Assembly: GCA_029061225.1 (NCBI GenBank)
Contig: JAIDSM010000140.1
Span: forward strand, 1-64,000
Length of the DNA: 64,000 nucleotides
DNA from: Muribaculaceae bacterium
Lineage (GTDB): Bacteria > Bacteroidota > Bacteroidia > Bacteroidales > Muribaculaceae
Reading direction: 5' to 3'
The position numbers and the translations under genes are program-made. Of the stretch, positions 3,857 to 40,303 are shown one piece after another; position 1 is the first letter of the stretch, and every line of letters begins with the position of its first letter. The notes below the pieces were generated by a model. The model was not told the DNA's origin, made no database searches, and saw only the letters and a program-made list of their open reading frames with translations.

Positions 3857-4020
3857 ATTACTCTATTTTACCAGCGGTGTAGACGTAGCAAGCAAGCACC
3901 TTAACACTGGAAAGTGCGGATTTGTGTTGATTTTTGCATTTTTCTGCACTTATCAGTGCAAAATTACGAAAAAAATCCCGTTGTTCCAAATAAAAAGACG
4001 GCGACCGAGAGCCCGAGAGT

Positions 4021-4047
4021 GCATTATGCATTATGCATTATTATTAC
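4021..4047. repeat. 7-bp periodic array (ATGCATT family), overlapping the xerD 3' end
   Basis: gcattatgcattatgcattattattac; period 7; contains the xerD stop codon. Confidence 0.85.
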
Positions 4048-4927
4048 GGTAGTGTGGATGGTGGGAGAGAAGTTCCTTGCGTAGACGCGAGCGGTCGAGA
4101 TGGACGTATATCTCGGTGGTTTCGAGCGATTCGTGGCCGAGAAGTTCCTGAATGACGCGGAGCGATGCGCCTCCTTCAAGCAGGTGAGTGGCGAAACTGT
4201 GGCGCAAGGTGTGGGGCGAGACGGTCTTCAGGATTCCGGCGGCGGCCGCAAGGTCGCGGATGATATAAAATACCATGACCCTCGACATCTTTCCTCCCCG
4301 ACGGTTGAGGAAGATTATGTCTTGCGAGTCTGATTTGATATTGAGACGTGCCCGTTGAGGCAGATAATCCTTTATAAGATCCATCGCTACGGGCGAGACA
4401 GGCACTATCCGTTGCTTGCTTCCTTTTCCCTCCACTATCAAGCATCCGTCGTCGAAACTGAGACGGGAGAGCCGGGCGTCAATCAGCTCCGACACGCGAA
4501 GTCCGCTTCCATACAGCGTCTCTATTATGGCGTGGTTGCGCAGCGACTCCTCCTTATCGTCAGGAATCTGATCTATCATCATGTCGATCTCGGCAGTGCT
4601 TAGCACCTCCGGCAGATGTCTTCCCAGTCGGGGAGACTCAAGCAAGTCAGTCGGATTATTCTCTATTACTCCTGTAAGTTTCAGAAACTTGAAATAACTT
4701 CTTATTCCCGACAGGATACGCGCCTGACTTCGGGGGCCGATGCCTATGTCGCGGAGGGTGCAGATGAAGCCATGCAGATCCTTCTCGGTTGTCTCGGCAG
4801 GATTTATACCCTCGTCCTCGAGATACTCGAGAAGATGGCATACGTCTGAGACATATGCCTCGCATGTGTTGCCCGACATGCCGCGTTCGAGCGCGAGATA
4901 AGCTTCAAAGTCCTGGAGAGAAGTCAT
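4031..4927 (-). CDS. xerD: Tyrosine recombinase XerD
   Basis: Core-binding domain plus catalytic 'SPHTLRHSFATHLLEGGASLRVIQELLGHESLETTEIYVH'. Confidence 0.93.
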   Translation of the reverse strand: MTSLQDFEAYLALERGMSGNTCEAYVSDVCHLLEYLEDEGINPAETTEKDLHGFICTLRDIGIGPRSQARILSGIRSYFKFLKLTGVIENNPTDLLESPRLGRHLPEVLSTAEIDMMIDQIPDDKEESLRNHAIIETLYGSGLRVSELIDARLSRLSFDDGCLIVEGKGSKQRIVPVSPVAMDLIKDYLPQRARLNIKSDSQDIIFLNRRGGKMSRVMVFYIIRDLAAAAGILKTVSPHTLRHSFATHLLEGGASLRVIQELLGHESLETTEIYVHLDRSRLRKELLSHHPHYRNNNA

Positions 4928-5445
4928 ATTTCATATGTAATTTTTTGCATACCTGTTCGCCTCAGGAATATACAGAAGTCCTTGGATTCGAATTCGAGAG
5001 TGACCCCGTCTGAAATCTCTCCCGAAGGGCGGAAAGCCAGCAATCCGCATTCTTCCATGGCATCCATCTTGTGCCATAGTGCTGCGATATCCTTTTGGTC
5101 GAAGGCGATGATGAAGTCGGTGTCTTTCGGACACTCCTTATGTGTGGCCATGCGCAGTTTCGGCATGATCATCCGTATGGCTGTGACGATGCGTTTATCG
5201 GCGTCCGGCATCCATACATGGGCAGGGCGCAGCAGATGCAGCAGACGGATGATCATGCGGGCCCGGCGTAATCCTCGGCGGTCTTCATGATACTCGAAGT
5301 CGAGATAGGGATCGCAGTAGAAACCGTAGCGCTCATCCGGACGGATGCACTCCTTCACTATGCGGAAAGCCAAAGGGGAATGAACGCCATACCCCCTGGT
5401 ATGGCGCCATCTCCTTATCCAATCTCTCAATAATGCGTAATTCAT
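4924..5445 (-). CDS. Small protein related to the N-terminal part of Bacteroidetes class I methyltransferase-like proteins; no clear SAM-binding motif
   Basis: 'HTRGYGVHSPLAFRIVKECI' N-terminal motif; overlaps the xerD start by 4 bp; no GxGxG motif seen. Confidence 0.5.
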   Translation of the reverse strand: MNYALLRDWIRRWRHTRGYGVHSPLAFRIVKECIRPDERYGFYCDPYLDFEYHEDRRGLRRARMIIRLLHLLRPAHVWMPDADKRIVTAIRMIMPKLRMATHKECPKDTDFIIAFDQKDIAALWHKMDAMEECGLLAFRPSGEISDGVTLEFESKDFCIFLRRTGMQKITYEI

Positions 5446-5464
5446 AATGCATAATTCATAATAG
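5431..5464. repeat. 7-bp periodic array (ATTCATA/ATGCATA family)
   Basis: taatgcgtaattcataatgcataattcataata; supplies the start codon of ORF 4924..5445. Confidence 0.8.
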
Positions 5465-5511: not shown

Positions 5512-7995
5512 CTACCTCTCATTGTTCGTTTTGGCTCTTAAAAGTCCGTAGATCCAGCGGGCTATGGCTCCGAGGGCGAGAAGGTAGATCAGGATGACGG
5601 ATGCTATCGACACTGCATTGGCTTTCTTCACTGGTTCCGGATCAAACGTCATGACGATTTCGGAGTCGCCTGCCGGCAGACGCAGCGCACGGAGCACGTA
5701 GTCGGCCTGGCCGATGGGTGTCTCCTTTCCGTTGACCGTCGCCTTCCATCCCCAGGGGAAATACACCTCCGAGAAGAGGGCTATGCCACCCTTGGCGGTA
5801 TGGGCCTTGTAGGTGAGCTTGTTGGGCGCATACGAGGTCTCGTAGATGGTGTCGCCGGCCGCGATCGGCAGGGGAGTGCCTATGACATCGGCAAATTTTT
5901 TGTCTGCGACGGCCGTGTTGCGGTTCGTAAGGTCGGAAAGAGCTTCCATCTCTTCCTTGGAAGTGCCGACATAGGTCAGCGTGTCTACAAGCCATGCGTT
6001 GCCGAAGGCCTCGGTGTTAACGGTATATCCTCCGTCGGAGAGGATGTATTTGGCGTTGAGCATGTTCAATACGAAGGGGTTACCCTTGGATATCTGATGC
6101 TCTATGAGGTCGTTGTAGCGGGTCAGCTTTGCAGCGTGGTAGCCGCCGATTGTCTTGTGGAAATAGCTGCTGCGGGCCGAGGAGAAGCCCGGTATGTCCA
6201 TCACTCGGTAGTTGCTCTTGTCCTTGAGGATTTCGAGGTCGGCTTCGGTGGGCACGAAAGCGGCTTCGTCGCTCTCGGCGGTAAGGAAGTTGTCGGAGTC
6301 GACATAGCGCTTGTCTACTGTATAGAGGTCGATAAGAACAAGCGCGGCAAGACAGCATGCCCATACTGATGCGTTCTTGATGATCTTCTTGTCCCAAAGG
6401 AAAAGAAGGGCGCATCCAAGAAGGATAAAGATCAGTGAACGCATGGCGTCGGTCGAGACGAGTCCGAGTCGTCCGGCCTCGATGCCCTTCATCACGTTGG
6501 CATAAGCGGGATTGGAGAATGCTCCGGCCTCGTTCAGATAACCGAATTCGGAATCCGACCATGGTGCTCCGAATACCGAGGGAGAGATCCAACCGAGCAG
6601 ACAGACGAAGGCTCCGACGCCCATCACGCATATGACGGTCCATTTGTTCTGCTTGAAGAAGTCTTCGGTCTTTATGATCTGGCGTACGCAAAGAGCGGCC
6701 AAGAGCGGAATGCAGAACTCAGCCACTACCAGTATGGAGCTTACCGTTCGGAATTTGTTGTAGCCCGGGAAGTTATCGATCATCAAGTCGGTCAGTGCAT
6801 TGAAATTGTGGCCCCAGCTAAGCATGATCGTGAATATGGTGGAGGCGAAGAGTGCCCATTTCATGGGAGTCTCCCATTCTCCTTCGACGACAAACATCGC
6901 GAGGATGGCGAGCAGAAGCACGAAGACTCCGACATATACAGGTCCGTTGGTCATCGGCTGGTCGCCGAAATACTGCGGGAACTGCCCTGCGAACTGCATT
7001 TCCTCCGGACTTAGGTAGCGGTCGGCTCCCATGTCGGTCTCGGAGACGCTCTTGATGCGGTTTTCTCCTGCGGTGGGTTTGAGTGTCGCTCCTCCCTTCA
7101 CGTTAGGGATCAGCAGACTCCATGTCTCGTCGATGCCGTAGCTCCATGCCGTGATGGCCTGCCGGTCCATGCCGGCTGCCGCCGGAGCGTTAGGGTCGGT
7201 GATGTCGGTGGCGCGGCCGCGTACCGTCTCTTTGCTGTATTCGAGCGAGCTGTAGAGGCTCGGAGAGTTTGCCGCCACGCCTATGAGGCCGCATCCTATG
7301 AGGATGCCGGTGGCAGCCGCCCATTTGCCTACGGTCTTCTCCTTGATGGCTATCCATAGCCAGGCGATGGCGATGGCGAGCATCACGAAGAGGAAGTAGT
7401 AGGTCATCTGTGGATGGTTGCTCATAAGCTGAAGCGCGGAGAAGAGTGCGGTAAGCGCCCCTCCGGCGAGCCATTTACCCCGGTAGGCGAGTATCACGCC
7501 GCCGATCGTAGGGGGTATGTAGCATAGCGTCAGGAATTTCCATATGTGGCCTGCTCCGATGATGATTATGAAGTAGGAAGAGAATCCCCATGCGAGGGAG
7601 GCGAAGAGGGCCACGCTCCAGCGCATCTTCATGCATAGGCACATGATGAAGAATCCCAGCATCATGCCGAAGAGGAGGTTGGCGGGAGAGGGGAGACCGA
7701 GCATGTAGACGCTCTGTATCCAGGAAAGGAGGTCGTTGGCCGGATAGGATGGCGAGATCTGGAAGGTCGGCATGCCGCCGAATAGGGAGTTGGTCCAGCG
7801 GGTGCTTTCCCCGGTCTCTGCCTTGAAGGTCTGCTGTTCGTGGCCGTTGGCGAGTCCTTGCTGTATGTCGTGCTGCTGCAGCACTCTTCCCTCCATTGCG
7901 TCGGGGAAGAAAAACATAAAGGCGACCACTGCTAAGAGCAGAGCCGCCACTATGGTGTAGATGGTTGTCTTTTTATTTTGCATCGTCTGTTTCAA
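5512..7995 (-). CDS. YfhO-family polytopic membrane protein
   Basis: 827 aa, many TM helices, C-terminal 'EVYFPWGWKATVNGKETPIGQADYVLRALRLPAGDSEIVMTFDP' typical of YfhO. Confidence 0.9.
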   Translation of the reverse strand: MKQTMQNKKTTIYTIVAALLLAVVAFMFFFPDAMEGRVLQQHDIQQGLANGHEQQTFKAETGESTRWTNSLFGGMPTFQISPSYPANDLLSWIQSVYMLGLPSPANLLFGMMLGFFIMCLCMKMRWSVALFASLAWGFSSYFIIIIGAGHIWKFLTLCYIPPTIGGVILAYRGKWLAGGALTALFSALQLMSNHPQMTYYFLFVMLAIAIAWLWIAIKEKTVGKWAAATGILIGCGLIGVAANSPSLYSSLEYSKETVRGRATDITDPNAPAAAGMDRQAITAWSYGIDETWSLLIPNVKGGATLKPTAGENRIKSVSETDMGADRYLSPEEMQFAGQFPQYFGDQPMTNGPVYVGVFVLLLAILAMFVVEGEWETPMKWALFASTIFTIMLSWGHNFNALTDLMIDNFPGYNKFRTVSSILVVAEFCIPLLAALCVRQIIKTEDFFKQNKWTVICVMGVGAFVCLLGWISPSVFGAPWSDSEFGYLNEAGAFSNPAYANVMKGIEAGRLGLVSTDAMRSLIFILLGCALLFLWDKKIIKNASVWACCLAALVLIDLYTVDKRYVDSDNFLTAESDEAAFVPTEADLEILKDKSNYRVMDIPGFSSARSSYFHKTIGGYHAAKLTRYNDLIEHQISKGNPFVLNMLNAKYILSDGGYTVNTEAFGNAWLVDTLTYVGTSKEEMEALSDLTNRNTAVADKKFADVIGTPLPIAAGDTIYETSYAPNKLTYKAHTAKGGIALFSEVYFPWGWKATVNGKETPIGQADYVLRALRLPAGDSEIVMTFDPEPVKKANAVSIASVILIYLLALGAIARWIYGLLRAKTNNER

Positions 7996-8443
7996 GCTTG
8001 ATCTGACGGTTCATAGACTGCTCGAGCGAGATGAGGGTCTCGGTCTCGGTGACGCCCTTGATGTGCTGGATACGGTCGTTGAGGAGCTCCATGAGGTGCT
8101 GGTTGTCGCGAGCGAACACTTTCATGAGCATTGAGTACGGGCCGGTGGTGAAGTGGCACTCCACAACCTCGGGAATGCTTTCGAGATCGGCTACCACGCC
8201 GCGGTACATCGATCCTTTCTCAAGCTTCACGCCTACATAAGTGCAGGTGTTGTAGCCGAGTTTCTTCGGGTCTACGTCATAGCCCGATCCGGTGATTACC
8301 CCCATTTCGATGAGACGCTGGATTCTCTGATGGATTGCCGCGCGGGATACGCCGCATACGATGGCCACGTCCTTCGACGGCGTACGGGCGTTGTTCATGA
8401 TGATGTTCAGGATCTTTCTGTCAAGATTATCGACCTTTTCCAT
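7973..8443 (-). CDS. Lrp/AsnC-family transcriptional regulator
   Basis: 'DNLDRKILNIIMNNARTPSKDVAIVCGVSRAAIHQRIQRLIEMGVITG'; internal ATG at 8443 preferred over the ORF-track start at 8518. Confidence 0.93.
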   Translation of the reverse strand: MEKVDNLDRKILNIIMNNARTPSKDVAIVCGVSRAAIHQRIQRLIEMGVITGSGYDVDPKKLGYNTCTYVGVKLEKGSMYRGVVADLESIPEVVECHFTTGPYSMLMKVFARDNQHLMELLNDRIQHIKGVTETETLISLEQSMNRQIKLETDDAK

Positions 8444-8546
8444 GATTGTTGTTGTCTTGTTTTTAGATTCGGTTCTGTTTATAAGTATTCTCGCATTTTT
8501 CAATACCTCTTCAAGCATCGGATATTGGAAATGCGACTTCTTTTTG

Positions 8547-8612: not shown

Positions 8613-8726
8613 TTAAGTCTTCAGTCTTCAGTCTTAAGTCTTAAGATAGCGGACAAGCCGCTTGGGTTACTCTGAAGACTGAAGACTTAAGACTAAAGAC
8701 TTAAGACTTAAGACTGAAAACTCAAA
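8613..8726. repeat. Heptad-armed inverted repeat element: (AGTCTTN)n - AGCGGACAAGCCGCT core hairpin - (NAAGACT)n
   Basis: Left arm 8613-8646, core 8648-8662, right arm 8672-8726; period 7; related element at 12389. Confidence 0.9.
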
Positions 8727-10010: not shown

Positions 10011-10110
10011 TATTGCTCAGCTCGGAGAGCTGTCATCATGTCGAAACCCCGGGCATCAAGCCCGGGGTCAAGCCAAGGGCTCAGTAGCCTCGGAGAGGCG
10101 CTTCGTGATA
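10011..10110. repeat. GC-rich dispersed repeat, copy 1, between two heptad arrays
   Basis: tattgctcagctcggagagctg...cgggcatcaagcccg...cagtagcctcggagaggcgcttcgtgata; near-identical blocks at 15936-16037. Confidence 0.85.
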
Positions 10111-10130: not shown

Positions 10131-10186
10131 TTAATACTTAACCCTTAACCCTTAACTCTTAACTCTTAACCCTTAACTCTTCTTAA
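10131..10186. repeat. 7-bp periodic array (TTAACCC/TTAACTC)
   Basis: ttaatac|ttaaccc|ttaaccc|ttaactc|ttaactc|ttaaccc|ttaactc; includes the rbfA stop codon. Confidence 0.9.
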
Positions 10187-10571
10187 CGTCATCCGGATCT
10201 ACGTAGTCATCGGCAGTCCCCTTGATGGGGTCGCTTGCCAGCAGGCGGTCGATGTTCTCGGCGTAGTCGAGGGAGTCGTCAAGGTAAAAAGCGAGGTCGG
10301 GACATTTGCGGAGCACCTGCTTCACGGCCTGTGCCAGCTCGTAGCGCACGGTCTTGCTCTGCTTCTTGATGTTTTCGAGTATCTCGTTGCTCTTTTCGGG
10401 AGGGAAGATGCTCAGATATGCTTTTGCCACAGATAGGTCGGGTGAGACGCGCACTGCGCTCACGGATACGAGTACATTGCCCATGGCGGCTGTCTGCCGG
10501 CGGAAAATCTCGCTCAGTTCCTTCTGGATAAGTCTTGATATCTTAGCTTGTCTTTTAGATTCCATAGTCAT
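10173..10571 (-). CDS. rbfA: 30S ribosome-binding factor A
   Basis: 'RISRLIQKELSEIFRR'-like N-terminus and 'VSPDLSVAKAYLSIFP' motif. Confidence 0.93.
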   Translation of the reverse strand: MTMESKRQAKISRLIQKELSEIFRRQTAAMGNVLVSVSAVRVSPDLSVAKAYLSIFPPEKSNEILENIKKQSKTVRYELAQAVKQVLRKCPDLAFYLDDSLDYAENIDRLLASDPIKGTADDYVDPDDVKKS

Positions 10572-10577
10572 TTCTGT

Positions 10578-10643
10578 TTAATTCATAATTCATAATTCAG
10601 AATTTCGATTAATGCATAATTCACAATTCATAATGCATAATTA
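10578..10643. repeat. 7-bp periodic array (ATTCATA family), left arm
   Basis: ttaattcataattcataattcagaatttcgattaatgcataattcacaattcataatgcataatt. Confidence 0.85.
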
Positions 10644-10752: not shown

Positions 10753-10787
10753 GAATTATGCATTATGAATTATGCATTATGCATTTC
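10753..10787. repeat. 7-bp periodic array (TATGAAT/TATGCAT), inverted right arm
   Basis: aattatg|cattatg|aattatg|cattatg|catttcc; contains the stop codon of ORF 10763..11425. Confidence 0.85.
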
Positions 10788-11425
10788 CTGAGAAGGCTTA
10801 TTCCGTCGCGGAAAGGAAGAATCACTGTCTCGAACCCCGGGAGCGATGCCGCCTTTTCATTAAAGGTACTGACACCCCGCGTCTGCGGATCGTTTTCATA
10901 CGCCGGATCGCAGACATGTCCCGACCAGAGCGTGTTGTCGGCTATGATGAGTCCTCCCGGCCGCAGCATACGTGCCGCTTCCTCAAGATAAGCGGGATAT
11001 TGCCGCTTGTCGGCGTCGATGAAGATCATATCCACCGACTCGTCGGCAAACTCCCTGCAGATGTCGAGAGCCGGTCCTATGCGGAGTTCTACCTTGCCGC
11101 CATGCTCCGACGCGTCGAGCTGTCGGCGTATGAAATCCTCCAGTTCGTCGTCTACCTCGATAGTCACAAGGTGTCCATCCTCGGGCAGTCCTTCGGCGAT
11201 GCATAGGGCTGAATAGCCGGTGAAGGTGCCAAGTTCCACGGCGAGCTTTGGGGCGCACAGCTGTGTGAGCATCTTCAGGAGTCGTCCCTGCAGATGTCCC
11301 GACACCATCCGTCCGTTGATGAGCCGCAGATAAGACTCTCTGGTGAGCTGTCGCAGCAGCTCCGGCTCCTCCGAAATGTGGGAGTCGACGTAAGCGTCGA
11401 TCCCCGATTCAATCTCATATTTCAT
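10763..11425 (-). CDS. Class I SAM-dependent O-methyltransferase (caffeoyl-CoA O-methyltransferase-like)
   Basis: 'LAVELGTFTGYSALCIAEGLPEDGHLVTIEVDDE' and 'VDMIFIDADKRQYPAYLEEAARMLRPGGLIIADNTLW'. Confidence 0.94.
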   Translation of the reverse strand: MKYEIESGIDAYVDSHISEEPELLRQLTRESYLRLINGRMVSGHLQGRLLKMLTQLCAPKLAVELGTFTGYSALCIAEGLPEDGHLVTIEVDDELEDFIRRQLDASEHGGKVELRIGPALDICREFADESVDMIFIDADKRQYPAYLEEAARMLRPGGLIIADNTLWSGHVCDPAYENDPQTRGVSTFNEKAASLPGFETVILPFRDGISLLRKCIMHNS

Positions 11426-11958: not shown

Positions 11959-12336
11959 CTAAAATAATTGAACGAGTTTTGGCAGGAAGATAATCAGTCC
12001 GGCTGCTGCCGCCCCTATCGCCATCATGAGCACTCCGGCCGCCCCCACATCCTTCGCCTTCTTTACCAGCGGATGAAACTCCGGACTCACAAGGTCGGCC
12101 AGCGCCTCCACCGCTGAGTTCATCGCCTCCCCCATCAGCACCGCGCCGCAGCACAACGCCACGACACACCACTCAGTGGCGGATATATCCAGCACAAAAC
12201 CAAGCGCGACAGCGCACACCATCGCAAGCACATGGATACGTGAATTATGTTCATCCCGCAGCAGTGTTCCGATACCGGCAAACGCATATCCGAACGACCG
12301 CATCCTCTTCCTGATAGAAAACTTTTCCTTCTTCAT
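11959..12336 (-). CDS. dgkA: Diacylglycerol kinase family protein
   Basis: 'RSFGYAFAGIGTLLRDEHNSRIHVLAMVCAVALGF...GEAMNSAVEALADLVS'. Confidence 0.92.
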   Translation of the reverse strand: MKKEKFSIRKRMRSFGYAFAGIGTLLRDEHNSRIHVLAMVCAVALGFVLDISATEWCVVALCCGAVLMGEAMNSAVEALADLVSPEFHPLVKKAKDVGAAGVLMMAIGAAAAGLIIFLPKLVQLF

Positions 12337-12388: not shown

Positions 12389-12534
12389 TGAGTCTTGAGT
12401 CTTCAGTCTTCAGTCTTGAGATTGCGGACAAGCCGCATGGATTATTCTCAAGACTGTAGACTCAAGACTTAAGACTTAAGACTGAAGACTCAAGACTGAA
12501 GACTCAAGACTTAAGACTTAAGACTTCAGACTGG
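12389..12534. repeat. Heptad-armed inverted repeat element, second copy, core TGCGGACAAGCCGCA
   Basis: Left arm of AGTCTTN repeats, core 12423-12437, right arm of NAAGACT repeats to about 12534. Confidence 0.9.
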
Positions 12535-12703: not shown

Positions 12704-14305
12704 ATGGCAGAGTTAGATTTGTCCCGCTACGGGATCAAGGGTGTGAAGAAAATCATCCACAACCCTTCCTACGATCAGCTTTTCATTGAAGAAACAAAGC
12801 CCGGCCTCGAAGGCTATGAAAAGGGTATCCCCACAAGCCTCGGCGCTATCGACGTGATGACAGGCGTCTACACTGGCCGCAGCCCCAAAGACAAATACCT
12901 CGTTAAGGACGCCACTACAGAAAACACTGTATGGTGGAACACTCCCGAGTATCCCAACGACAACAAGCCCATCACTACCGAAGTATGGGACCAGCTCAAG
13001 AAGATCGCTATCGACGAACTCTCCGACAAGGAACTTTTCGTAGTCGACCTCTTCTGCGGCGCAAACGCAGCTACACGCCTCAAGGTACGCTTCATCGTGG
13101 AGGTGGCTTGGCAGGCTCACTTCGTGACCAACATGTTCATCCGTCCTACTGAGGAGGAACTCAAGGACTTCGAACCTGACTTCGTAGTCTACAACGCTTC
13201 CAAGGCTAAGGTTGAGAACTACAAGGAACTCGGCATCAACTCCGAGACTTGCGTCGCCTTCAACATCACCGACAAAGAGCAGGTGATCATCAACACCTGG
13301 TATGGCGGCGAGATGAAGAAGGGTATGTTCTCCATGATGAACTACTTCAACCCCCTCCGCGGCATCGCTTCCATGCACTGCTCCGCAAACACCAACATGG
13401 AGGAGACCAGCACAGCTATCTTCTTCGGTCTTTCCGGCACAGGCAAGACTACCCTTTCCACCGACCCGAAGCGTAAGCTCATCGGCGACGACGAGCACGG
13501 CTGGGACGACGAGGGCGTATTCAACTACGAAGGCGGCTGCTACGCTAAGGTCATCAACCTTGACAAGGAGAGCGAGCCCGATATCTACAACGCTATCAAG
13601 CGTGACGCGCTTCTCGAAAACGTTACCGTTGTCAACGGCGAATGTGATTTCGCTGACAAGAGCGTGACAGAGAACACCCGCGTTTCTTATCCTATCTATC
13701 ACATCAAGAACATCGTCCGCCCCGTTTCCAAGGGTCCGGCTGCTGATCAGGTCATCTTCCTCTCAGCTGACGCGTTCGGCGTTCTTCCTCCCGTGTCCAT
13801 CCTCAACGACGAGCAGTGCAAGTACTACTTCCTCAGCGGCTTCACCGCTAAGCTCGCCGGCACAGAGCGCGGCATCACAGAGCCTACTCCGACATTCTCC
13901 GCTTGCTTCGGCGCAGCGTTCCTCAGCCTCCACCCCACTAAATACGGTGAAGAGCTCGTTAAGCGCATGCAGAAGAGCGGTGCCAAGGCTTACCTCGTGA
14001 ACACCGGCTGGAACGGCACAGGCAAGCGTATCTCCATCAAGGATACCCGCGGCATCATCGACGCTATCCTCAGCGGCGACATCCTCAAGGCTCCTACAAA
14101 GACCATTCCTTACTTCGACTTCGTAGTTCCTACCGAACTCCCCGGAGTAGATCCCAAGATCCTCGATCCGCGCGACACTTACGCTGATCCCGCTGAATGG
14201 AACAAGAAGGCAGAAGACCTCGCAGCCCGCTTCATCAAGAACTTCAACAAGTTCACTACCAACGACGAAGGCAAGGCACTCGTAGCCGCAGGCCCGAAGC
14301 TCTGA
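12704..14305 (+). CDS. pckA: Phosphoenolpyruvate carboxykinase (ATP)
   Basis: '[28 protein letters not shown]' kinase loops. Confidence 0.98.
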
Positions 14306-14393: not shown

Positions 14394-14459
14394 CATTTCC
14401 GGATAATTTGTTTGTTTCTGTGTCCGGACCTTGGTCCGGCTCCAAAAATTAACCTGACA

Positions 14460-15797
14460 ATGAAACCTCTAAGCCTCGGATACTTACTAAACCTTTTAAA
14501 CCTCTTAACCCTCTTAACCCTCGCAATCTCCTCCTCTGCCGAGAATTACCCCTACCGCAGCGACGTGCTCTGGGTCACTGTCCCAGACCATGCCGACTGG
14601 CTCTACAAAACCGGTGAGAACCCGACTGTCGACGTGCAGCTATATAAATATGGTGTGCCCGTCGACGGCGTCAAACTTACCTATGAGATTGGCGGCGACA
14701 TGATGCCCGCCGACTCGAAAGGGGAGACCCTCCTCAAGAACGGCCGCGCCTCAATCAAGACCGGTACGATGAAGACTCCCGGTTTCCGCGACCTCCGTCT
14801 CTCGGCAGATGTTGACGGCACAGTCTACAAGCACCACATAAAACTAGGATTCTCCCCCGAGAAAATCGAACCCTATACCGAGATGCCGAAGGATTTCGAT
14901 GCTTTCTGGAATAAGAACCTCGAGGAACTATCCGATGTGCCACTCGACTTCAAGATGACTCCCTCTCCCAAATACACCACCGACAAGATGGACTGCTGGC
15001 TCGTAAACCTTACAGTAAGCAAGCAAGGTCAGTCCATCTACGGATATCTCTTCATCCCGAAAGATGCCAAACCCGGTTCATGCCCCATCGTGCTCTGTCC
15101 CCCCGGCGCCGGCATCAAGACCATCAAGGAACCGCTGCGCCACCGCTACTACGGTGAGAACGGTTGCATCCGCTTCGAGATGGAGATTCATGGACTTAAC
15201 CCCGAGATGACCGACGAGGCCTTCAAGGAGATCAGCAAGGCATTCAGCGGGCGCGAGAACGGTTATCTGCAGAATGGACTCGACAATAAGGACAACTATT
15301 ATATGAAGAGGGTCTATCTCGCATGCGTCCGAGCTATCGACTTCCTGACCACGCTCCCCGAATGGGACGGCAGGAACGTCGTGCTGCAGGGTGGCAGCCA
15401 GGGTGGAGCCCTCGCCATCGTGACCGCCGGACTCGACAAACGTGTGACGGCCTGCGTCGCCAACCATCCCGCCCTCAGCGACATGGCCGGATACAAGGGC
15501 GGCAGGGCAGGGGGGTATCCCCATTTCCTCCGCGTCGACGGTATGGACACCCCCGAGAAGCTCAACACCATGGCATATTATGACGTAGTGAATTTCGCCC
15601 GCCGTGTGAAATGTCCCGTCTACATGACCTGGGGCTACAACGATGACACCTGTCCTCCGACCACCAGCTACGCCGTCTACAATGTCATCACCTCCCCGAA
15701 GGAAGCCCTTCTCACCCCCATCAACGAGCACTGGACCTCCGAAGCCACCGAACGCGGCCATCTCGACTGGATCCTCCGCCATCTAATTGAGAATTGA
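14460..15797 (+). CDS. Acetylxylan esterase-like (AXE1/CE7) secreted hydrolase
   Basis: 'GGSQGGALAIVTAGLDKRVTACVANHPALSDMAGY' and 'MTWGYNDDTCPPTTSYAVYN'; ATG at 14460 preferred over TTG at 14412. Confidence 0.9.
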   Translation: MKPLSLGYLLNLLNLLTLLTLAISSSAENYPYRSDVLWVTVPDHADWLYKTGENPTVDVQLYKYGVPVDGVKLTYEIGGDMMPADSKGETLLKNGRASIKTGTMKTPGFRDLRLSADVDGTVYKHHIKLGFSPEKIEPYTEMPKDFDAFWNKNLEELSDVPLDFKMTPSPKYTTDKMDCWLVNLTVSKQGQSIYGYLFIPKDAKPGSCPIVLCPPGAGIKTIKEPLRHRYYGENGCIRFEMEIHGLNPEMTDEAFKEISKAFSGRENGYLQNGLDNKDNYYMKRVYLACVRAIDFLTTLPEWDGRNVVLQGGSQGGALAIVTAGLDKRVTACVANHPALSDMAGYKGGRAGGYPHFLRVDGMDTPEKLNTMAYYDVVNFARRVKCPVYMTWGYNDDTCPPTTSYAVYNVITSPKEALLTPINEHWTSEATERGHLDWILRHLIEN

Positions 15798-15808
15798 GAA
15801 TTGAGAAT
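15786..15808. repeat. 7-bp periodic array (ATTGAGA), left arm; contains the stop codon of ORF 14460..15797
   Basis: attgagaattgagaattgagaat. Confidence 0.9.
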
Positions 15809-16049: not shown

Positions 16050-16074
16050 AATTCTCAATTCTCAATTCTCAATT
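16050..16074. repeat. 7-bp periodic array (ATTCTCA), inverted right arm of the 15786 array
   Basis: aattctcaattctcaattctcaatt. Confidence 0.9.
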
Positions 16075-25018: not shown

Positions 25019-25092
25019 TCGGGGTGACAGGATTCGAACCTGCGACCACCTGGTCCCAAACCAGGTGCGCTACCGGACTGCGCTACGCCCCG
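25019..25092 (-). tRNA. tRNA-Pro (anticodon TGG)
   Basis: CGGGGCGTAGCGCAGTCCGGTAGCGCACCTGGTTTGGGACCAGGTGGTCGCAGGTTCGAATCCTGTCACCCCGA; cloverleaf readable. Confidence 0.93.
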
Positions 25093-38625: not shown

Positions 38626-40266
38626 ATGGCAACAAAACCCTTCCATTATCAAAAGCCTTTCGAGCTTGGCCCCGACACTACGGAATACAAGCTCATCACC
38701 AAAGACTATGTAAAGACTGAAGACTGGAACGGCCACGAGATGCTCGTAGTCGATCCTGAGGCTCTTACCGTAATCGCCAATGTCGCCTCGCACGACTGCT
38801 CGTTTATGCTCCGCCGCGAGCACAATGAGATGGTAGCCAAGATCCTTCATGATCCCGAGGCTTCGGAGAACGACAAATTCGTGGCCCTTACGATGCTCCG
38901 CAACGCAGAGATAGCAGCTAAGGGTGTGCTTCCTTTCTGTCAGGACACCGGCACTTCAATCTGCGCCGCCTACAAGGGCCAGCAGGTATGGACCGGCTGC
39001 GATGACGAGGAGAAGATCTCACTCGGCGTCTACAAGACCTATACCGAAAACAACCTTCGCTACTCGCAGAACGCTCCCCTTACGATGTATGACGAGGTAA
39101 ACACCGGCTGCAACCTTCCCGCACAGATCGACATACATGCAACCGAAGGAATGGAATATAAATTCCTCTTCGTGGCCAAGGGTGGCGGCTCAGCCAACAA
39201 GACCTATCTCTATCAGGAGACAAAGGCCATCCTCAATAAGAAGACCCTTGTGCCTTTCCTCATCGAGAAGATGAAGACCCTCGGCACAGCAGCGTGTCCT
39301 CCCTACCACATCGCTTTCGTCATCGGCGGAACAAGCGCAGAGAAGAATCTTGAGGTGGTGAAGAAGGCTTCCGTGAAATATTTCGACAACCTTCCTACTA
39401 CCGGCAACGAATATGGCCGTGCTTTCCGTGACGTAGAACTCGAGAAGGAACTTCTCGAAGCCGCCCACAACATAGGACTTGGCGCTCAGTTCGGCGGCAA
39501 GTATTTCGCTCACGACATCCGCGTCATTCGTCTTCCCCGCCACGGTGCTTCCTGCCCTGTAGGCATGGGCGTAAGCTGCTCCGCAGACCGCAACGTAAAG
39601 GCTAAGATCAACAAGGACGGCCTATGGATAGAGAAACTCGACGAGAATCCCGGCGAACTTATCCCGGTTGAACTCCGTCAGGCCGGAGAGGGAGAGGTGA
39701 TCGAGATAGATCTCAACCGTCCGATGGAAGAGGTGCTCGCAGAACTTGACAAGTATCCCGTATCTACCCGACTGTCGCTCAAGGGTACCATCATAGTAGG
39801 CCGAGACATCGCACACGCCAAGATCAAAGAACGTCTTGACGCCGGCGAACCTATGCCCGAATATCTCAAGAAACATCCCATCTACTATGCAGGTCCGGCC
39901 AAGAAACCCGAAGGTATGCCTTCCGGATCGTTTGGCCCGACAACAGCCGGACGTATGGATCCCTATGTAGACCAGTTCCAGGCAGCCGGCGGCTCCATGA
40001 TCATGATCGCCAAGGGCAACCGCTCGCAGCAGGTCACCGACGCCTGCAAGAAGCATGGCGGTTTCTATCTCGGTTCGATCGGAGGTCCGGCCGCTATCCT
40101 TGCAAAGGATTCGATCAAGAGCGTAGAGCTGCTTGAATATCCTGAGCTCGGAATGGAGGCAATCTGGAAGATCGAGGTAGAGAACTTCCCCGCCTTCATC
40201 CTCGTAGACAATAAGGGCAACGACTTCTTCAAGCAGATCAAGCCCCGGTGCCCGATGGGGTGCTGA
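38626..40266 (+). CDS. Class I fumarate hydratase (fumarase A/B-like)
   Basis: '[25 protein letters not shown]', '[32 protein letters not shown]'. Confidence 0.96.
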
Positions 40267-40303
40267 GTCTTAAGTCTTCAGTCTTGAGTCTTAAGTCTTG
40301 AGA
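40264..40303. repeat. 7-bp periodic array (AGTCTTN), single arm only, starts at the fumarase stop
   Basis: tgagtcttaagtcttcagtcttgagtcttaagtcttgag. Confidence 0.88.

Follow-up and report, generated by a model that had tools for sequence, protein, structure and literature searches.

The two inverted elements described here are not conserved structured RNAs. They are probably composed of heptad arrays that begin at gene edges and of a dispersed REP-like hairpin, both matters of DNA rather than of a transcript, with a stem that as a whole is not under selection. The best reading of the arrays is that they are a variant of the known intergenic heptad repeats, accompanied by a dispersed hairpin. 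The window is the whole stretch of 64,000 nucleotides analysed, from a Muribaculaceae genome (G000), and it contains the following features.

Element 1 and its neighbours:
7973-8518, - strand: AsnC/Lrp-type regulator gene, on one side of element 1
8616-8643, + strand: left array, (AGTCTTN)4, which starts at the edge of the upstream region of the AsnC/Lrp-type gene and runs inward
8644-8648, + strand: junction AGATA (consensus AGATT), the joint between array and hairpin
8649-8661, + strand: core GCGGACAAGCCGC, a REP-like hairpin, GCGG-ACAAG-CCGC
Between core and right array: spacer TTGGGTTACTCT
8674-8722, - strand: right array, AGTCTTN on the - strand, which runs inward from the LolC/E-type permease stop codon
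8722-9945, - strand: LolC/E-type permease gene, on the other side of element 1
Element 2 and its neighbours:
11959-12336, - strand: gene without an NCBIfam match, on one side of element 2
12391-12418, + strand: left array, (AGTCTTN)4
12419-12423: junction AGATT
12424-12436, + strand: core, a REP-like hairpin, GCGG-ACAAG-CCGC
Between core and right array: spacer ATGGATTATTCT
about 12449-12532, - strand: right array, which ends beside the GGTTAAAAATNATTAAG block upstream of pckA
12704-14305, + strand: pckA, on the other side of element 2
Elsewhere in the window:
25019-25092, - strand: tRNA gene, with no other Rfam match across the window

The 3.7 Mb genome contains 9 exact copies of the core GCGGACAAGCCGC (0 for a reversed-pattern control), and AGTCTTNAGTCTTNAG, a 16-nt pattern of the AGTCTTN array, gave 350 overlapping matches (control 0). 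As single-stranded DNA, elements 1 and 2 folded with z values of -7.05 and -7.67 against shuffles. Since core and array matches far exceed the controls and the folds far exceed the shuffles, the features are real and go beyond chance. The anatomy given in the original prediction was borne out: inverted heptad arms flank a central hairpin in both copies, the outermost core pair is A-T in one and T-A in the other, the flanks of the two copies align, and the strong folds agree with the claim that arms and core can form a long stem. An Rfam scan of the whole window gave no RNA family at the elements. The GGTTAAAAATNATTAAG block upstream of pckA is kept in all species compared, and the array of element 2 in G000 ends adjoining it.

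The structural interpretation fared differently once further copies were aligned. The alignment comprises 34 copies of the core, including variants, from five related Muribaculaceae MAGs: G000 and its four sisters G149-G152, GenBank MAGs titled Muribaculaceae bacterium that all carry the same element. Many copies were retrieved by searching for the hairpin itself, which inflates its share, and copies are not independent of one another, either within a species or among the sisters. Pairing of the inner 4-bp stem (GCGG/CCGC) is intact in 34/34 copies; three inner pairs (G-C, C-G, G-C) are the same in all 34, and the fourth is A-T in a single copy, a variant hairpin, and G-C in the other 33. The loop varies among ACAAG, ACAGG, AGAAG, ACATG and ACGAG, with CTTCG in variant hairpins. 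Of the structural reading, the kept inner stem is thus supported. The outer core pair is A-T in 5 copies, T-A in 4, T-G in 5 and unpaired in 20. The A-T to T-A exchange had been taken as a compensatory change that supports selection on structure, a sense that it loses with the outer pair unpaired in 20/34; over the further copies, stem-breaking changes at this pair were no rarer than compensatory ones, the outcome that the prediction had named as its refutation. The single true double change distinguishes GCGGC-TTC-GCCGC from GCGAC-TTC-GTCGC, two hairpins behind the same junction. Compensatory changes do not outnumber pair-breaking ones, and the inner pairs are almost invariant. An adjacent inverted right arm is present in only 4/27 heptad-linked copies, and the variable seventh letters of facing arms are complementary at 6/15 positions, against 7.0 in shuffles. 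The pair counts, the arm letters and the scarcity of right arms together rule out covariation of core and arms. A long stem or cruciform can therefore fold and is not a conserved unit. The two copies in the window are a small, unrepresentative sample, as most copies have no adjacent right arm and their outer pair is mostly unpaired. Conservation of the short hairpin sequence together with loop variation fits either constraint or recent spread.

The core looks like a REP-like hairpin, about AGATT-GCGGACAAGCCGC-TTTGG, at the inner end of one array. Its joint with the array is fixed, (AGTCTTN)n-AG-3 nt-hairpin, in almost all heptad-linked copies, and other hairpins (GCGGC-TTC-GCCGC and GCGAC-TTC-GTCGC) occupy the same joint. 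The hairpin also occurs without AGTCTTN, behind the related words AGTTTTC, AGCNNTC and CGTTTTN, and at locus L095 it lies in a BIME-like cluster with other hairpins at 47-bp spacing. REP/BIME sequences and their TnpA-REP (RAYT) transposases are a known kind, which includes subclass 2.6 of Bacteroidetes, where the GTAG/GTGG consensus foot is likewise missing (PMC6006769, PMC3733652). Our hairpin resembles them as a short, GC-rich hairpin with dispersed intergenic copies (9 exact in G000, 34 in the five genomes) and in its clusters with other hairpins. It differs in that no RAYT gene was found with it, it bears no GTAG/CGTC tag, and it is usually joined to heptads; 5' of the hairpin no GTAG/GTGG or CGTC foot was found, the foot being AGATT or AGAAT.

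RAYT-like genes were found on contigs 65, 64 and 226 of G000 and on contig 24 of G149, and each lies between copies of its own hairpin repeats.

G000 contig 65 (L135), 251-862: RAYT-like Y1 transposase gene
L136, about 6077-6680: RAYT-like Y1 transposase gene
L137, about 3900-4890: RAYT-like Y1 transposase gene
G149 contig 24 (L188), 1195-1824: RAYT-like Y1 transposase gene

The repeat families flanking these four genes are ATGGGA-nGGCGGTTtcccAACCGCC, ATGGGA-tGGCGGTTtgCAACCGCC, GATTGTGGTGCGAACGCAGTGAG and GACGCACGCGGAGCGTGC, so that several REPtron-like units are found within one clade. Further dispersed hairpins are abundant in G000 (for example at window 10020-10110 and loci L141 and L154): GTAGGGACGCACGGCTCGTGCGTCC, which represents the commonest 12-mers of the sample, CTCGGAGAG-type hairpins and GGTTgGGAAACC-type hairpins, whose paired stem positions differ among copies.

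It is possible, if doubtful, that the whole element is a REP or REPIN moved in trans by a RAYT/TnpA-REP enzyme, with the mobile hairpin carrying neighbouring heptads along. The RAYT-like genes of G000 and G149, two of which match the NCBIfam REP transposase model below its cut-off (57.7 and 61.5 of 80 bits), and the cluster in L095 fit such a history, as do Bacteroidetes TnpA-REP genes flanked by atypical hairpins (PMC6006769). However, in these incomplete MAGs none of the RAYT-like genes found is flanked by GCGGACAAGCCGC, and G150-G152, likewise incomplete, carry the hairpin with no RAYT match. The GTAG foot is missing, and heptad arrays far outnumber the hairpin. As a source of the heptads themselves RAYT was rejected, because G150-G152 have heptads with no RAYT match and because period-7 arrays are few or absent in G086 and G030, which do have Y1 transposases.

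The arrays form a genome-wide class. In a census of sampled contigs, some of which were read as N, 289 arrays of exactly 7 nt were found with 74 consensus words, mainly AGTCTTN, CATAATK, TTAAGRG, TTAAAGA and TTGAGAA, and only 22/289 were inside an ORF of at least 120 aa. G000 and its sisters G149-G152 had 11-25 period-7 arrays per 100 kb, against 0-2.8 in G030, G086 and G126 of the same genus; arrays of other periods (4-6, 8-12) stayed at 0-4.3 per 100 kb. The AGTCTTN word is almost restricted to the clade of G000 and its sisters, and none was found in IMG/VR viruses. CATAATK is patchy, occurring in 29/149 genomes and 11/30 genera of the family and in 34/247 genomes of the order. The array-rich MAGs are larger (3.1-3.7 Mb for G000 and G149-G151, 2.6 for G152) than the same-genus genomes listed (2.0-2.6 Mb), and repeat load may contribute to this difference.

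Array length and its variation bear on a second alternative, ordinary replication slippage of short seeds with no special process. Unit number peaks at four for AGTCTTN (42/111) and CATAATK (33/75 and 27/50), neither of which has lengths that decay as slippage would predict; no peak at four units appears for TTAACYC. Variation within arrays is limited to one or two degenerate positions. For AGTCTTN, the seventh base is A, C or G at similar numbers and the other positions are 94-99% constant. Compared with shuffles, the variable letters of adjacent units differ more and those of units two apart agree more, an alternation that fits 14-nt duplications. Orthologous arrays differ in length by whole units. 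Heptanucleotide long simple sequence repeats, described by Mrazek and colleagues as cited in PMC4679880, are according to that citation the commonest long repeats of many bacterial genomes and are put down to slippage; the dominance of period 7 is common to them and to our arrays. The whole-unit differences and the 14-nt duplications are what slippage would leave behind. Still, period 7 alone is enriched, the peak at four and the confined variation run against it, and the same words recur in distant genera. The strict polarity and inward pairing set out below, like the four-unit mode, are not explained by slippage, so that it is unlikely as the sole process. Slippage may resize arrays, but alone it explains neither mode, place nor direction.

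With genes called as the longest ATG ORFs, so that start positions are approximate, 132/201 arrays have an edge within 10 nt of a CDS edge, compared to 83.5 expected within the same gaps. All window arrays at 4022, 5443, 8674, 10142, 10754, 15787, 37400 and 40266 overlap or touch a start or stop codon, and examples are listed here.

5443-5456, + strand: CATAATK array, overlaps the start codon of the gene at 4924-5445 (-)
10142-10176, - strand: TTAAGRG array, overlaps the rbfA stop codon
10584-10642, + strand: CATAATK arrays, just beyond the start codon of rbfA (10173-10571, -)
10754-10781, - strand: CATAATK array, overlaps the stop end of the gene at 10763-11425 (-) and forms an inward pair with 10584-10642
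15787-15807, + strand: TTGAGAA array, overlaps the stop end of the gene at 14412-15797 (+)
16052-16072, - strand: TTGAGAA array, faces the array at 15787-15807
40266-40300, + strand: one-sided AGTCTTN array, whose first base completes the TGA stop of the gene at 38626-40266 (+)

For most words, one and the same array end predominates at CDS edges. Within 25 nt of a CDS edge lay the 5' end of 37/61 AGTCTTN arrays and the 3' end of 10/61; for CATAATK the counts were 42/55 and 5/55, and these arrays lie within 25 nt of 21 starts and 21 stops in one polarity. TTAACYC has its opposite end near the CDS edge at the same distance (14/16 vs 5/16), and the AAAACGT family has no clear polarity. The CATAATK polarity was repeated in other genera (17/44 vs 2/44). 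In viral contigs of other origin the same word has no edge polarity (43 vs 36) and its pairs are mostly outward (7 outward, 2 inward), which indicates that the orientation rule belongs to lineages and not to the word; in the IMG/VR contigs L329, L350 and L351, CATAATK arrays often form outward pairs, the opposite of Muribaculaceae. Since the same DNA strand leaves both starts and stops, mRNA would carry opposite sequences at the two, and an RNA signal is an unlikely cause. This argues for a cause of the polarity at the DNA level. AGTCTT units ending in A or G (TTAAGTC and TTGAGTC, containing TAA/TGA) number 20 at stop edges and 0 at start edges, and units ending in C (TTCAGTC) number 1 and 5, respectively. 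A candidate rule for the words of arrays leaving a gene would be TTVANNN.

Neighbouring arrays of the same word face inward in 39 cases and outward in 0, counts that are not independent of those for polarity. Neighbours of different words gave 10 inward pairs and one outward pair, the latter with arrays 2 nt apart and a doubtful word assignment. The inverted arms of the elements follow from this general orientation rule. As outward pairs would also form a stem and are never seen, selection for a stem does not explain the inward rule.

In several genera inward pairs enclose between a few and about 300 nt, and their heptad arrays might be the terminal inverted repeats of MITE-like insertions. 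We consider this rather improbable: partners are often different words (the 10 inward hetero-pairs), which disfavours a MITE with matching ends, many arrays are one-sided, and most copies have no common interior. No target-site duplication is demonstrable, sister intergenic DNA being too diverged to reveal one. The omega protein of plasmid pSM19035 binds 7-bp sites. Heptad repeats serve as parS sites of this plasmid (PMC9499535), and by analogy the arrays might be protein-binding sites, which position-specific degeneracy and the four-unit mode would suit. An explanation of this kind seems equally improbable, since a single clade has at least seven well-populated words, every one of them in many arrays, and since arrays are gained and lost rapidly and lie at both starts and stops of unrelated genes.

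Gain and loss are seen between close relatives. At the site of element 2 the element is missing in G149, G150 and G152; G150 and G151 lack element 1 at its site, where G149 carries a one-way array with no hairpin. G031, a member of another genus, has inward pairs in gaps whose orthologues, in those congeners where they were readable, contain no such arrays. At 4727-4809 of L291 (G031) and its flanks, a long near-perfect inverted repeat lies between divergent genes. It includes a heptad of irregular form and some 20 nt of promoter-like flanking DNA, and has the appearance of a fold-back duplication.

Selection could act on a structured RNA or cruciform, its stem being preserved by compensatory changes. 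This view has in its favour the predicted folds of both elements, the inner stem that stays intact while the loop varies and the one double change in a variant hairpin, but it is very improbable and, for the long stem, largely refuted by the mostly unpaired outer pair, arm letters that match no better than shuffled ones, the rarity of adjacent right arms, the lack of outward pairs that would make the same stem and the absence of the elements from orthologous sister sites.

Candidate enzymes were also sought. No Ku was found in any of the 13 genomes searched, and Ku-type end joining was rejected. Among matches to RVT_1, those of G000, G150 and G151 were retron-like and those of G149 formed a DRT3 pair, and G152 had none; with types that differ among the five genomes there is no common candidate, and a clade-wide reverse transcriptase was rejected. 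The G149 pair consists of adjacent Drt3a and Drt3b genes (L288/L289, contig 155), both over the NCBIfam cut-offs, and is a DRT3 anti-phage system. A further proposal is strand-polar repeat addition, in which intergenic DNA is lost or broken and a 3' end at an essential edge is extended by about four heptads, for which a template or a further array serves as the source, and is then rejoined. We give it little credence. If true, such repeat addition would leave inward heptad scars and hairpin filler, a bacterial counterpart of interstitial telomere-like repair scars.

For the favoured account of gene-edge arrays with a dispersed hairpin, the copy set, the junction, the polarity, the inward rule and presence or absence between species are direct observations, and the following steps probably connect them. 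A strand-polar event at the DNA level would seed an array at the edge of coding or conserved regulatory DNA. This array, most often of four AGTCTTN units, would read inward into the gap and later grow or shrink by 7 or 14 nt at a time. The hairpin, a REP-like repeat, would spread by itself and be attached in a set register to one array at its inner end. Where arrays of the same word come to stand on both sides of a gap, their inverted arms would be able to pair and give an apparent stem, which as a whole selection would not maintain.

The closest match among known repeats is the TAACTGA class. These heptad direct repeats occur in Beggiatoaceae, cyanobacteria and some Bacteroidetes; they are intergenic, with 2-6 units in Maribeggiatoa, lie near start codons in one orientation, show 7-nt indels between strains, and have a patchy phylogeny that leaves them missing from close relatives (MacGregor 2015, PMC4679880). 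Intergenic 7-nt direct repeats, directional near starts and patchy in distribution, are common to both. The word itself is scarcely shared, as its rotation AACTGAT formed only two arrays. Unlike the TAACTGA class, the arrays described here have many words per genome, systematically occupy both stop and start edges, form inward pairs (39:0), are linked to REP-like hairpins, have a four-unit mode and come from gut Bacteroidales. In Nostoc tRNA-Leu introns, degenerate heptad repeats pair in the P6b stem. Two classes of repeat motif are mentioned in PMC4476775. Degenerate heptads on both sides of a stem would be a resemblance only, since the Nostoc heptads are inside a group I intron and ours are in intergenic DNA with no intron.

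The orientation of arrays can thus be enough to produce a striking inverted-repeat stem, with no need of selection on pairing. Intergenic heptad repeats have been noted for years and, to our knowledge, have no agreed origin. The predictions of slippage, transposition, protein binding and end extension differ, and the direction at starts and stops, the inward-only pairs, the four-unit length and the presence of an abundant clade beside poor genomes of the same genus make that origin testable. In this gut bacterium, the arrays are fast-changing non-coding repeats that run from gene edges into the gap, toward one another.
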